DNA from: Kaistella carnis
GTDB lineage: Bacteria; Bacteroidota; Bacteroidia; Flavobacteriales; Weeksellaceae
Reading direction: 5' to 3'
NCBI RefSeq assembly: GCF_003860585.1
Contig: NZ_CP034159.1
Span: forward strand, 186,001-250,000
Length of the DNA: 64,000 bases
Below the pieces are notes generated by a model. It saw only the letters and a list, made by a program, of their open reading frames with translations. It searched no databases and was not told the DNA's origin. Made by a program: the position numbers and the translations under genes. This document shows positions 15,604-19,218 of this stretch, piece after piece. Each line of letters opens with the position of its first letter. The first letter of the stretch is position 1.

Positions 15604-16491
15604 ATGACGAAATATTTAAAACTGCTCCGTGTTGAACAATGGGTGAAAAACCTTTTTGTTTTTGCACCACTATTTTTTTCCGGAAATATTACCAATGTCG
15701 ATTTGCTGACCCGAAGTATTTTGGCATTTATCATTTTTTCGCTTACGGCCAGCAGTATTTATATTATTAATGATTATTCAGATATTGAATCAGACCGGAA
15801 GCATCCTCAAAAAAAAGACAGACCCTTAGCCAGCGGTGTAATTTCGAAGGTTACTGCAAAAATAATTTTAGGAATTTTATTAGCAATCGTTGTTACGGTC
15901 GTTTTTAGTGCGAAAGACTATTTTGGAGACCATCTTTGGAAGTTTTCCTCCATCATTTCCTTTTACTTTGTGATGAATTTAGCCTACACTTTTAAATTGA
16001 AGCATGTGGCGATTGTTGATGTTTGTATTATCGCTATCGGTTTTGTTTTACGGGTTTTGGCAGGAGGTTATGCCACCGGTATTTTAATCTCGCAGTGGGC
16101 AATATTACTTACTTTTGTATTGGCACTGGTTTTAGCAATAGGAAAGCGAAGAGGGGAACTTATAAATGCTCAGATTTCAGGCAGAACAAGAAAATCACTC
16201 GATGGTTACAATGTTCAGTTTGCAGATATCGCACTTTCCATCAGTTGTGCATTGGCAATCGTTTGTTATTTAATGTTTACCTTATCACCAGAAGTGCAAC
16301 AGAAATTCCATCCACGCGTTTTTTACACCGTATTTTTTGTAGTGTTTGCGTTTTTACGTTATCTGCAACAGACTTTGGTGTATAATAAAACCGAATCACC
16401 AACCAAAATTATTTACAAGGATCGTTATATTCAGGTAACCATGGTACTTTGGTTAGTTGCCTTTTTACTTCAAATTTATTTTAAAAAATGA
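15604..16491 (+). CDS. UbiA-family prenyltransferase, decaprenyl-phosphate phosphoribosyltransferase-like
   Basis: Integral membrane enzyme of 295 residues with about eight or nine hydrophobic segments. It has the first Asp-rich site INDYSDIESDRKHPQKKDRPLASG and a second region VDVCIIAIGFVLRVLAGG, as in mycobacterial UbiA (Rv3806c), which joins phosphoribosyl pyrophosphate to polyprenyl phosphate. The start LLRVEQWVKNLFVFAPLFF is typical of that subfamily rather than of menaquinone MenA. It overlaps the next gene by four bases, and the neighbours are DprE1/DprE2-like, which strongly supports this substrate class. The exact lipid is inferred. Confidence 0.88.
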   Translation: MTKYLKLLRVEQWVKNLFVFAPLFFSGNITNVDLLTRSILAFIIFSLTASSIYIINDYSDIESDRKHPQKKDRPLASGVISKVTAKIILGILLAIVVTVVFSAKDYFGDHLWKFSSIISFYFVMNLAYTFKLKHVAIVDVCIIAIGFVLRVLAGGYATGILISQWAILLTFVLALVLAIGKRRGELINAQISGRTRKSLDGYNVQFADIALSISCALAIVCYLMFTLSPEVQQKFHPRVFYTVFFVVFAFLRYLQQTLVYNKTESPTKIIYKDRYIQVTMVLWLVAFLLQIYFKK

Positions 16492-17801
16492 AACCAAATT
16501 ATAAACAGGAAGTAGCGAACTGGGGTAATTTTCCCGTAGTGGAAAAAGAAATGAAGTCTGAAGATTCTTTATCTAAAATAATAGACTTTGTAAAAAATCA
16601 TAACGAAATTATTGCCCGCGGGAACGGCAGATGTTATGGCGATTCGGCACTCTCGGAACATATATTTTCTACCAAAAGACTCAATAAATTCATCAGTTTC
16701 GACCGTTTAAACGGTGTGATCGAATGTGAATCTGGCGTCTTACTTTCTCAGGTCTTAGAAGTAATTGTACCGCAAGGTTATTTTCTCTTTGTAACGCCCG
16801 GAACCAAATTTGTGACCGTGGGTGGCGCAATTGCATCTGATGTTCACGGTAAAAATCATCATGCTGAAGGTTGCTTTTCAGAATATGTTTTAGAATTTTC
16901 ATTATTGAATGAAAGGGGAGAAGTCCTCAAATGTTCCCGAGATGAAAATCAGGAAAAATTTTGGGCAACCATTGGAGGAATGGGACTTACAGGAATCATT
17001 CTTTCGGCAAAATTCAAATTAAAAAATATAGAAACCTCTTATATTTATCAGGAAAGTATTAAAGCTGATAATTTAGACGAGATTTTCCGCCTCTTTGAAG
17101 AAAGTGAATCGTGGACTTATAATGTGGCCTGGATCGACTGTTTACAGAAAGATAAAAATTTGGGAAGAAGCATTCTGATGCGTGGCGAACATGCTTTTAA
17201 ACATCAGATCTCTCAAAAACAGCAACAGAATCCTTTAGAATTAAAAAAAGGAATTAATCCATCTGTCCCTTTTTATTTTCCCGGCTTTGTTCTAAATAAT
17301 CTGACGGTGAAATTGTTTAATTTGCTGTATTTCAATAAACAAAGAAAAAAAACAGTCAAAAATTTTGTTCATTACGAATCGTTTTTTTATCCGCTGGATA
17401 TCGTTAACGACTGGAATAAAATTTATGGCAAAAAAGGTTTCATCCAGTATCAAATGGTGATTCCGAAAGAGAAAGGGAAAGAAGGCATGAGGAAAATTTT
17501 AGAAACCATTGCCAAAAGTGGAAACGGTTCTTTTCTCGCGGTCTTAAAACTTTTTGGTAAAAACAATCCCGAAGCATATAATTCTTTCCCGCAGGAAGGT
17601 TACACCTTGGCTTTGGATTTTAAAGTGAATTCAAAACTTAAAAAACTGGTCGCACAACTTGATTCGATTGTAGAGGAATATGGAGGGCGAATTTATTTAA
17701 CCAAAGATTCTATGAGCAAATCTTCCTTGACCAATTATTTGGAGAATGTTCAAAATTCTAAATTTCAGTCTTTACAACAGAAAAGAATTCAAAATAGCTG
17801 A
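16488..17801 (+). CDS. FAD-linked oxidase, DprE1-like (decaprenylphosphoryl-ribose oxidase)
   Basis: Flavoenzyme of 437 residues that would oxidise the 2'-hydroxyl of a polyprenyl-phosphoryl-ribose. The FAD domain shows IIARGNGRCYGDSAL and the diagnostic TVGGAIASDVHGKNHH at about 110-125. Near the C-terminus, Lys406 in YLTKDS fits the catalytic Lys of Mycobacterium DprE1, and Ala375 (GYTLALDF) lies where I recall the Cys attacked by benzothiazinones. It is translationally coupled to the UbiA gene upstream and is followed after 52 bp by the DprE2-like gene. L-gulonolactone oxidase-type enzymes are related but fit less well. Confidence 0.88.
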   Translation: MKPNYKQEVANWGNFPVVEKEMKSEDSLSKIIDFVKNHNEIIARGNGRCYGDSALSEHIFSTKRLNKFISFDRLNGVIECESGVLLSQVLEVIVPQGYFLFVTPGTKFVTVGGAIASDVHGKNHHAEGCFSEYVLEFSLLNERGEVLKCSRDENQEKFWATIGGMGLTGIILSAKFKLKNIETSYIYQESIKADNLDEIFRLFEESESWTYNVAWIDCLQKDKNLGRSILMRGEHAFKHQISQKQQQNPLELKKGINPSVPFYFPGFVLNNLTVKLFNLLYFNKQRKKTVKNFVHYESFFYPLDIVNDWNKIYGKKGFIQYQMVIPKEKGKEGMRKILETIAKSGNGSFLAVLKLFGKNNPEAYNSFPQEGYTLALDFKVNSKLKKLVAQLDSIVEEYGGRIYLTKDSMSKSSLTNYLENVQNSKFQSLQQKRIQNS

Positions 17802-17853
17802 TCAAAAATATTTTCTTATCCGAAATTAAAATGCCGAAAATTACACTATCAAT

Positions 17854-18579
17854 ATGATCGTTCTAGGAAGCAATTCAGAAGTAGCACAGGCCTTTGTGGA
17901 AAAAGCCTTAGATGCCGGGGAAAAATTTTCTAAAATTTTCCTCCTCACTTCAAATAAAGAAACGACCGAAAAATTTTCAAAACATCTCGAAGTAAAATAT
18001 ATTCAACAGTCTGAGATTATCGAACTTGATCTGTTACAGGAACTTGATTTTAATATGCTTGATGATATTAATTCTCATCTTCTCTTCTGCGCGACGGGAT
18101 ATCTTGGGGAAGGAACCGAGGAAGGGCTGTATGATGATCGAAATACAAAGAAAATAATCGATGTAAATTATGCTAAATTAATTCCTGTTCTTAATTTTTT
18201 TGCAGAGAAAATGGAAAGACAGCGTAGTGGTACCATGATCGTACTTTCCTCCGTAGCGGGTGACCGCGGTCGACAAAGTAATTTTATTTACGGCAGTGCA
18301 AAGGCTGGTTTAACTGCATATTTGAGCGGTTTGCGGAATTATCTTTTTAGTAAAAAAGTCCACGTGCTCACCATAAAGCCAGGTTTTATGGCGACTAAAA
18401 TGACCGAAGGTTTGCCGCTCAATCCAAAATTAACGGCAAGTCCGAAACAGGCAGCTGAAGCCATTTACAAAGCTTACAAAAATAAAAAGAATGTAGCATA
18501 TGTTTTACCGATATGGTCTATTATTATGTTGGTTATTAGAAATATACCCGAATTTATTTTTAAGAAATTTAAACTTTAA
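17854..18579 (+). CDS. Short-chain dehydrogenase, DprE2-like
   Basis: NAD(P)H-dependent SDR of 241 residues. In this context it would reduce the keto intermediate made by the DprE1-like oxidase, completing epimerisation of the ribose unit to arabinose. The N-terminal nucleotide motif is unusual for an SDR (VLGSNSEVAQAF), the catalytic region has VLSSVAGDRGRQSNFIYGSAKAGL with the Tyr-x3-Lys pair, and KPGFMATKMTEGLP follows. A C-terminal hydrophobic helix (IIMLVIRNIPEFIF) could touch the membrane. Function is inferred mainly from the order UbiA-DprE1-DprE2. Confidence 0.85.
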   Translation: MIVLGSNSEVAQAFVEKALDAGEKFSKIFLLTSNKETTEKFSKHLEVKYIQQSEIIELDLLQELDFNMLDDINSHLLFCATGYLGEGTEEGLYDDRNTKKIIDVNYAKLIPVLNFFAEKMERQRSGTMIVLSSVAGDRGRQSNFIYGSAKAGLTAYLSGLRNYLFSKKVHVLTIKPGFMATKMTEGLPLNPKLTASPKQAAEAIYKAYKNKKNVAYVLPIWSIIMLVIRNIPEFIFKKFKL

Positions 18580-18630
18580 TAAAATAAATTGTAAGTTTAA
18601 AGGAAACTTCTTAAAATCTATTTAAAAAAA

Positions 18631-19218
18631 ATGAAAAAATTATACTGTTTTGATTTTGATGGAACTTTAACCTACAATGATACCATGTTTCTCTATCTCA
18701 AATTTTACAATTCCTCGAAATTCCGAATGCAGTTTGTGAAACATGTTCCTCTTTTTGTTTTATTAAAATTAAAGCTGGTAGAAGCTGAAAAAATCAAAAA
18801 GAGTTTTATTGCTTCTATTTTAAAGGGAGAATCAAAAGAGAAAATTGAAAAAAAATCCCAACAGTTTTTTGAAAAATACTATCCGGAAATTTTTCGGACA
18901 AATGCTTTAGAATTTATAGAGAGTATTGACCGGAACCACACTGAAAGTTATATTGTTTCTGCCTCTCTCGATATTTGGGTTCAACCTTTTGCAGAAAAAT
19001 TTAAGATGAATCTGCTGGCGACCCGTGCGGAGTTTGTTGATGATATTTTCACGGGTAATTTTATTGGTAAAAATTGCAACGGAGCTGAAAAAGTAGAGCG
19101 GTTAAAAGAAGCGACTAAAGGTAAAAAATACGATAAAATTATTGCTTTTGGAGATACTTCGGGGGATCGTGAAATGATGGAGTGGGCAGATGAGAGTCAG
19201 TTTAAATTTTTTCATTAA
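18631..19218 (+). CDS. HAD-superfamily (IB) phosphatase in the DprE cluster
   Basis: Haloacid-dehalogenase phosphatase of 195 residues. It has motif I FDFDGTLTYND with the nucleophile Asp near residue 8, motif II YIVSAS and motif III GDTSGDREMM. It resembles the HAD-IB phosphoserine phosphatase group. Position directly after the DprE2-like gene (51 bp) suggests it removes the 5-phosphate from polyprenyl-phosphoryl-phosphoribose before oxidation, a job done in mycobacteria by an unrelated protein (Rv3807c). That role is inference; the phosphatase fold is clear. Confidence 0.85.
   Translation: MKKLYCFDFDGTLTYNDTMFLYLKFYNSSKFRMQFVKHVPLFVLLKLKLVEAEKIKKSFIASILKGESKEKIEKKSQQFFEKYYPEIFRTNALEFIESIDRNHTESYIVSASLDIWVQPFAEKFKMNLLATRAEFVDDIFTGNFIGKNCNGAEKVERLKEATKGKKYDKIIAFGDTSGDREMMEWADESQFKFFH

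Follow-up and report, generated by a model that had tools for sequence, protein, structure and literature searches.

The 64,000 nucleotides of Kaistella carnis DNA analysed here (NCBI RefSeq assembly GCF_003860585.1, contig NZ_CP034159.1, positions 186,001 to 250,000; hereafter the window) carry a cluster of four neighbouring genes on the plus strand at positions 15604-19218. They encode a UbiA-type transferase, a DprE1-like oxidase, a DprE2-like reductase and a HAD phosphatase. Lipid-bound D-arabinofuranose is familiar chiefly from the cell wall of the tuberculosis bacterium and has later been described in further bacteria. It is highly probable, judging from gene content and comparison, that the four proteins make a polyprenyl-phosphate β-D-arabinofuranose donor, which would be used on the extracytoplasmic side by GT-C enzymes encoded elsewhere. 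In Kaistella, the product is likely an arabinofuranosylated exopolysaccharide, because the candidate GT-C gene heads an exopolysaccharide operon.

In the pathway that we propose, the donor, probably undecaprenyl-phosphate β-D-arabinofuranose, would be made at the cytoplasmic face of the inner membrane. After transfer of the phosphoribosyl group from phosphoribosyl pyrophosphate (PRPP) to the lipid, the HAD enzyme would remove the 5-phosphate. The DprE1-like protein would then oxidise C2 and the DprE2-like protein would reduce it with inversion, converting ribofuranose into arabinofuranose. The lipid donor may be flipped by a candidate protein encoded outside the cluster. No flippase gene was seen within it, and one unlinked GtrA-like gene is present (G000:C1:1639555-1640013; the MATE and SMR families were not searched). 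On the outer side, GT-C arabinofuranosyltransferases encoded elsewhere would add D-arabinofuranose to a glycan, the best candidate in this genome being a 512-residue protein.

A preliminary description of this DNA had read the genes as the steps from PRPP to polyprenyl-phosphoryl-arabinose, namely transfer, dephosphorylation, oxidation and reduction. Family models and PDB relatives support this assignment by homology. The four genes and the overlap of the first two were likewise borne out, as intact open reading frames on one strand. The description had also placed the genes in the order of the steps. All four are indeed present, but they run transferase, oxidase, reductase, phosphatase, which is not the order of the reactions (Table 1).

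Table 1. Genes of the proposed arabinofuranose donor cluster, with positions in the window.
Feature	Position	Strand	Assignment based on
UbiA-type polyprenyl-phosphate 5-phosphoribosyltransferase (putative), 295 aa	15604-16491	+	NF008978, PDB 8j8j
DprE1-like FAD-dependent oxidase, 437 aa	16488-17801	+	NF053785, PDB 4aut
DprE2-like short-chain reductase, 241 aa	17854-18579	+	PDB 21gq chain C, NF053786
HAD-IB phosphatase, proposed 5-phosphate phosphatase of lipid-linked ribose, 195 aa	18631-19218	+	TIGR01490, FDFDGT motif

The stop of the UbiA gene and the start of the DprE1-like gene share four bases (16488-16491). With 219.9 bits, the UbiA protein exceeds the cut-off of 207 of NF008978, the NCBIfam model for decaprenyl-phosphate phosphoribosyltransferase, and it misses the sister model NF008977 by about 1 bit (232.9 against 234). 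At E 0.001 the PDB offers just two relatives of this protein, 8j8j (E 5.7e-41) and 8j8k. Both are decaprenyl-phosphate phosphoribosyltransferases, and the loop ND..D...DR.HP.K..RP of the Kaistella protein aligns with the former. The top NCBIfam model for the oxidase is DprE1 (E 5e-119). Of the solved sequences, the nine nearest to it are without exception DprE1, the best being 4aut with E 1.8e-77. The HGKN motif and K406 are invariant in 19/19 aligned homologues; K406 aligns with DprE1 lysine 418, which we take to be the catalytic residue. A375 aligns with DprE1 cysteine 387, presumably the benzothiazinone target, and the alanine is again invariant in 19/19. For the reductase, the top PDB match is DprE2 (E 7e-24), with a 3-oxoacyl-ACP reductase as runner-up (5e-10), and the DprE2 model is matched at E 6e-43. 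Finally, the phosphatase passes the HAD-IB model with 114.8 bits against 98.3. As a side observation, two further UbiA genes are found elsewhere in the genome.

The gene set is widespread in the family. Among 148 sampled Weeksellaceae genomes, 127 gave DprE1 matches; setting aside six with weak hits only, 121 carry a DprE1 orthologue (121/148). In a sample of 296 genomes from the phylum, a DprE1 match at E 1e-30 was found in 63, and the NF053785 cut-off was reached by none of the 296. The 20 listed negatives of this sample all belong to one other family of the same order (213 more negatives are unlisted). Across 40 DprE1 loci from whole genomes, of up to 20 kb each, a DprE2 homologue is present in 32 and a separate HAD homologue in 21. 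The conservation over these loci and a second set of 75 speaks against a chance neighbourhood of four unrelated enzymes, a reading that we rejected.

The cluster also keeps its surroundings. An OmpA-like gene and a cysteine desulfurase gene flank it in 20 of 22 named Weeksellaceae loci, the exceptions being L240 and L241 (we number loci L, genomes G and genera g). A quick tree built from 111 DprE1 rows unites the 42 from Weeksellaceae with one metagenome-assembled genome of Prevotellaceae in a single clade (SH-aLRT 99); the window DprE1 lies near that of a Kaistella sp., and genus g9 looks like Epilithonimonas by its place in the tree. Since the Weeksellaceae rows form one clade and the flanks are conserved, the gene set looks mostly vertically inherited within the family.

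The phosphatase step offers a further view of the pathway. We compared the genes within 6 positions of DprE1 in two partly overlapping locus sets, the 40 whole-genome loci and 80 named loci, 75 of which have a callable DprE1 gene (five were dropped). The whole-genome set contains a separate HAD gene in 21 loci, a HAD-UbiA fusion in 7, a divergent PAP2 gene in 2 and none of these in 10; the corresponding numbers for the named loci are 45, 5, 5 and 20. Two phosphatase types never occur together (0/115), and none lies nearby in 30/115. The fusion class was set by a length of at least 440 residues plus UbiA similarity, and the 4 of 12 proteins tested have HAD and UbiA domains by Pfam; for the PAP2 class, one of seven proteins was tested and is DUF212, 'divergent PAP2 family'. 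At L073 (10356-10787) and L074 (8667-9074), a divergent PAP2 (DUF212) gene sits between UbiA and DprE1, and no HAD gene is present there. Similar PAP2 genes also accompany UbiA in Pseudomonas and Thiothrix loci. Such swapping of phosphatase types at one place is as expected of a required 5-phosphatase.

Could the HAD protein instead be an unrelated housekeeping phosphatase that is merely a neighbour of the other three genes? HAD-IB phosphatases are a broad class, and the sole PDB similarity of the Kaistella protein is weak (E 3.5e-4, to a phosphoserine phosphohydrolase-like protein). Moreover, L084, L087 and L096 gave no HAD homologue close to the donor genes, and in the last of these it is absent from its usual place. 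Against this stand the separate HAD genes near DprE1 in both sets and their replacement elsewhere by a fusion or a PAP2 gene, never by two types, with the 30 loci lacking any as the remainder. The same step is carried out by a HAD domain fused to a UbiA-type enzyme, according to the main text of Kelly et al. 2024 (PMC11127046). We therefore regard a mere bystander as very improbable. The score above the TIGR01490 cut-off, the conserved linkage and the mutual exclusion with fusion and PAP2 genes suggest, on grounds of homology and linkage, that the HAD protein may act with the UbiA-type enzyme. At the genome level, they support the view that HAD enzymes remove the 5-phosphate.

Where might the donor be used? 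The preliminary description had suggested looking for GT-C arabinosyltransferases in the genome, and this search yielded a candidate. In two other genera (L095, L099), a GT-C-like protein of 502 residues and ten helices is encoded directly after the HAD gene. Its homologue in the Kaistella genome has 512 residues and 40% identity (E 1e-103) and is encoded at G000:C1:2499631-2501169, 2.3 Mb along the contig from the donor cluster (or, should the contig be circular, about 0.9 Mb in the opposite direction). We refer to these proteins as family A. The Kaistella gene heads a run that continues with a GT2-like glycosyltransferase (by inspection), EpsG, Glycos_transf_4, Poly_export and a Wzc-like protein (AAA_31 by Pfam). 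The same exopolysaccharide run surrounds the family A gene in 5/5 other loci of the genus that were fetched (L138-L142). The AlphaFold model of the Kaistella protein is confident (predicted local distance difference test, pLDDT, 89.2; predicted template modelling score, pTM, 0.89) and has an alpha/beta region at its C-terminal end, after many helices. Residues 34-36, QED, are invariant. A GT-C fold is predicted for the protein from its length, helix content, motif and homology.

Family A is present in 79/148 Weeksellaceae genomes. In 11 of the 79, no more than about 3 kb separates the gene from DprE1. Nine of these genomes belong to genus g22 and the remaining two are G028 and G007, the latter with the gene broken into two frames. 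In all, family A is found beside the donor genes in three Weeksellaceae genera other than Kaistella. A second GT-C-like family, B, takes the same exopolysaccharide place in the Epilithonimonas-like genome G008 (L200) and in Chryseobacterium G082 (L316). It occurs in 46/148 genomes, all of them DprE1-positive, and comparison of the two profiles shows remote homology to family A (98.1%, E 1.2e-13). Taken together, A or B is found in 101/121 DprE1-positive and 2/27 DprE1-negative genomes (p 5.8e-14, with shared ancestry uncorrected), and the two negative genomes are assemblies about 80% complete. Counted by genus, the figures are 22/24 against 2/9 (Fisher p 2.6e-4, with deeper shared ancestry again uncorrected). 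We considered whether a general exopolysaccharide gene would be associated with DprE1 equally well, and rejected this: the link of EpsG is far weaker than that of A or B. As an aside, the family B genes at L303-L308, L310, L312, L313, L315 and L318-L320 adjoin conserved genes of about 137, 158, 705 and 101 residues.

A further clue to the function of family A comes from a bridge protein. When the family A profile was compared with the GT-C-like genes carried in cassettes (the E-values refer to a set of only 23 sequences), two proteins besides its own member L095_13, both from other phyla, scored clearly: L277_2 with 36.2 bits and L263_11 with 22.5 bits (profile against single sequence, 91.8%). 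The latter is encoded beside UbiA in the GtrA-DprE1-DprE2 locus of Pseudomonas indica. It matches the mycobacterial arabinosyltransferase AftB (9dlf) at E 3.7e-12 and the model for terminal beta-arabinofuranosyltransferase, NF041481, at E 1.9e-10, the 39.5 bits being far under the cut-off of 1050. Family A is thus tied to AftB transitively, by sequence similarity through L263_11. The family B profile had no PDB hit up to E 10.

Complete cassettes from distant bacteria fit the proposed parts list. In Methylococcaceae, Desulfamplus and Sulfurospirillum (L273, L278, L288), the genes stand in one row, UbiA-GtrA-DprE1-DprE2, then a protein of 495-518 residues with 8-10 transmembrane helices, then HAD. 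The resemblance of these polytopic proteins to GT-C enzymes is limited to size and helices.

Several observations weigh against the pathway and its use as proposed. The DprE1-like protein scores 398.3 bits, below the equivalog cut-off of 500 of its model, and the DprE2-like protein scores 147.2 bits, below the cut-off of 250; the unnamed short-chain dehydrogenase/reductase (SDR) model NF005489 outscores the DprE2 model (241.9 bits, cut-off 267). Three loci of genus g2 (L084, L330, L331) have only UbiA and DprE1 linked. The Kaistella GT-C-like protein matched no Pfam family (496/512 residues queried) and no NCBIfam family at E 0.01, so that the AftB model NF041481 was not matched either. A 35-sequence profile of its family gave AftB as the single PDB hit up to E 10, at a non-significant E 0.29, and the L095 protein compared directly with AftB gave E 0.14, again not significant. 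Most cassette-borne GT-C-like genes, including those of L273, L278 and L288, are missed by the family A profile. The control gene EpsG is also tied to DprE1 (115/121 against 19/27, p 6.5e-4), and none of these counts is corrected for shared ancestry. Both A and B are absent from 20/121 DprE1-positive genomes. Within the Kaistella operon, a DDE transposase gene (G000:C1:2505563-2506465; L135:3663-4565, minus strand) lies inside the wzc-like gene. In three genomes of the same genus (G075, G100, G129; L198, L199, L204), the two conserved genes that border the exopolysaccharide block are present, but the whole block, GT-C through Wzc, is absent between them, and the donor genes are kept. Lastly, open-licence PMC papers yielded neither an arabinofuranose glycan or its transferase from Weeksellaceae nor any sugar chemistry for Kaistella.

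The scores below the equivalog cut-offs bear on which sugar is made. A polyprenyl-phosphate pentofuranose could be formed, with the oxidase/reductase pair giving a mixture or a different sugar, such as a 2-keto intermediate or xylofuranose. The main text of Kelly et al. 2024 (PMC11127046) describes a route to xylofuranose that shares this entry step and uses a single SDR epimerase. The nine closest solved sequences of the oxidase, all DprE1, speak for arabinofuranose instead, as do the DprE2 homologues in 32/40 DprE1 loci. In the main text of the same study (PMC11127046), homologues of DprE1/E2 are tied to glycans containing arabinofuranose (Araf) and the ORF13-type SDR to xylose. A product other than arabinofuranose is accordingly unlikely in our estimation.

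A family B gene hidden in the 20 genomes lacking both was sought with the profile, which found 0/38 (the 20, the Kaistella genome itself and 17 DprE1-negative genomes); this search had no positive control, and it also missed the Kaistella family A protein. In 7 of the 20, another polytopic gene, of 451-559 residues and 9-12 predicted helices, lies within 3 genes of DprE1 (L321-L324, L326, L327, L329; genera g17, g22, g28). Two such genes at L326 bear the motif EDAY...LEGATDFLW. In the cluster flanks of the other 13, no GT-C-like gene was judged present, and a 614-residue gene (L334) and a 509-residue gene with five helices (L097) were seen.

The transposase and the missing block concern Kaistella itself. 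Both parts of the split wzc-like gene match the protein of a relative on either side of the transposase. As this insertion splits the gene, the strain may be compromised in exporting its polymer or in controlling chain length. The exopolysaccharide operon is not the only user of the donor, because three Kaistella genomes keep DprE1 without the block. One of them, G129, carries family B; the other two have neither A nor B, which implies that another user of the donor must exist there.

These three genomes also fit an explanation that is compatible with the donor as proposed. Here, the main acceptor in Weeksellaceae would be a protein O-glycan begun by a TMEM260-like O-mannosyltransferase, with exopolysaccharide as a secondary acceptor in Kaistella. 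In 11/20 fetched loci, all from other genera (L145-L153, L155, L156), the family A gene directly adjoins a gene for a protein of 1160-1179 residues with 12-13 predicted helices. The two of these large proteins tested (L145, L147) are TMEM260-like (PF11028), and the Kaistella genome also has a TMEM260-like protein. A link of family A to protein O-glycosylation is therefore possible. In Kaistella, by contrast, the family A gene sits in the exopolysaccharide operon, in our genome and in the five fetched relatives alike, and no GT-C-like gene follows the TMEM260-like gene (L189). The strings 'arabinos' and 'pent' are both absent from the review PMC12871550, searched in its main text without the glycan drawings. 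We consider a mainly protein-bound acceptor somewhat doubtful, and continue to favour the exopolysaccharide for Kaistella.

A mycobacterial-type arabinan was considered and rejected: the only PDB hit of the family profile is the non-significant one to AftB, and no Emb chain appeared (the genome was not model-searched for Emb). On our analysis, the donor likely serves to modify an exopolysaccharide or some other glycan outside the cytoplasm, as in the three-component systems discussed below, rather than to build such an arabinan. In agreement with the preliminary description, which had stated that flavobacteria have no known arabinogalactan, none was found reported in open-licence PMC papers. 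The same description had proposed the HAD protein as a replacement for the mycobacterial phosphatase. Its role is supported by homology, but the idea is not new, as a HAD phosphatase in this step is described in the main text of PMC11127046.

How does the Kaistella system compare with known ones? It shares with the mycobacterial decaprenylphosphoryl arabinose (DPA) pathway the same proposed chemistry step by step, and UbiA, DprE1 and DprE2 are homologous. In contrast, the 5-phosphatase here is a HAD protein, and Rv3807c is unrelated to HAD phosphatases according to the main text of PMC11127046. The position of the DprE1 cysteine is an alanine in Kaistella, and there is no sign of arabinogalactan. 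The Kaistella GT-C-like protein has no match to the AftB model and is linked to that enzyme through the Pseudomonas cassette protein.

Further parallels are the three-component pentofuranose systems of Kelly et al. 2024, with the GT136 prototype of Citrobacter youngae. As described in the main text of that study (PMC11127046), a UbiA-type enzyme and a HAD phosphatase domain produce polyprenyl-phosphate ribofuranose; the HAD domain was shown to dephosphorylate the farnesyl-phosphate ribose-5-phosphate formed by the UbiA-type domain. DprE1/E2 homologues, which are optional, were noted in systems for arabinofuranose-containing glycans, and GT-C enzymes use the donor outside the membrane. Further candidate systems with glycans of unknown nature, some with several epimerases or GT-C genes, are also listed there (PMC11127046). 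By homology, the Kaistella genes likewise provide a UbiA-type transferase and the epimerising enzymes DprE1/E2, the latter under their equivalog cut-offs. They differ in that the HAD phosphatase is a separate protein and no flippase gene is adjacent. In addition, the donor genes form a locus that is widely conserved across a bacterial family, and the GT-C-like enzyme, of an unnamed family, is encoded far off in an exopolysaccharide operon. The strings 'Bacteroid' and 'Flavobacter' are absent from the main text of PMC11127046, and Bacteroidota examples may be in its supplements.

A Gram-negative use of lipid-linked arabinofuranose is also seen in the pilus arabinosylation of Pseudomonas, for which the UbiA-type PPPRS was proposed to make undecaprenyl-phosphate arabinofuranose (undP-Araf) in the main text of PMC11127046. 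The Pseudomonas loci L263 and L276 contain UbiA, divergent PAP2, GtrA, DprE1, DprE2 and an adjacent GT-C-like gene. In Kaistella, unlike in these loci, the GT-C-like gene lies outside the cassette, and the surroundings of the cluster revealed no pilin gene.

The pathway itself and the HAD step are hence of a kind already known from the main text of PMC11127046. What we add is the placement of a widely conserved D-arabinofuranose donor pathway in Weeksellaceae, including Chryseobacterium, Epilithonimonas, Kaistella, Apibacter and others, together with a concrete candidate transferase and its operon. We also point out two unnamed GT-C-like families, of which the first is connected to AftB by way of L263_11 and the second is remotely homologous to the first. 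The main text of PMC10787497, on capsule loci of Riemerella and other Weeksellaceae, contains no 'arabin', UbiA or decaprenyl. In the portions of PMC4052302 and PMC10429481 considered here, D-arabinose is named in other contexts only, though Chryseobacterium and lipopolysaccharide occur.

More tentatively, and as a possibility that falls short of our expectation, polyprenyl-phosphate D-arabinofuranose may serve as a currency throughout Weeksellaceae. A fixed, largely vertically inherited donor locus would feed interchangeable, unnamed GT-C transferases related to AftB in different glycan systems. These would be the exopolysaccharide operons of Kaistella, the Epilithonimonas-like genome and one Chryseobacterium, and the TMEM260-like protein O-mannosylation locus of other genera. 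D-arabinofuranose would then be found on exopolysaccharides and possibly on glycoproteins. If D-arabinose is confirmed, this would suggest a source of substrate besides mycobacteria for bacterial D-arabinanases.

A further polytopic type, alike by eye, has 449-453 residues and 10-13 predicted helices (L193:5322-6671, L200:16172-17521, L207:10001-11362 and L321-L324). The one such protein tested, from L321, has no NCBIfam family. Genes of this type adjoin the donor cluster in some loci; in others they neighbour a TMEM260-like gene or fall within or close to the exopolysaccharide run.

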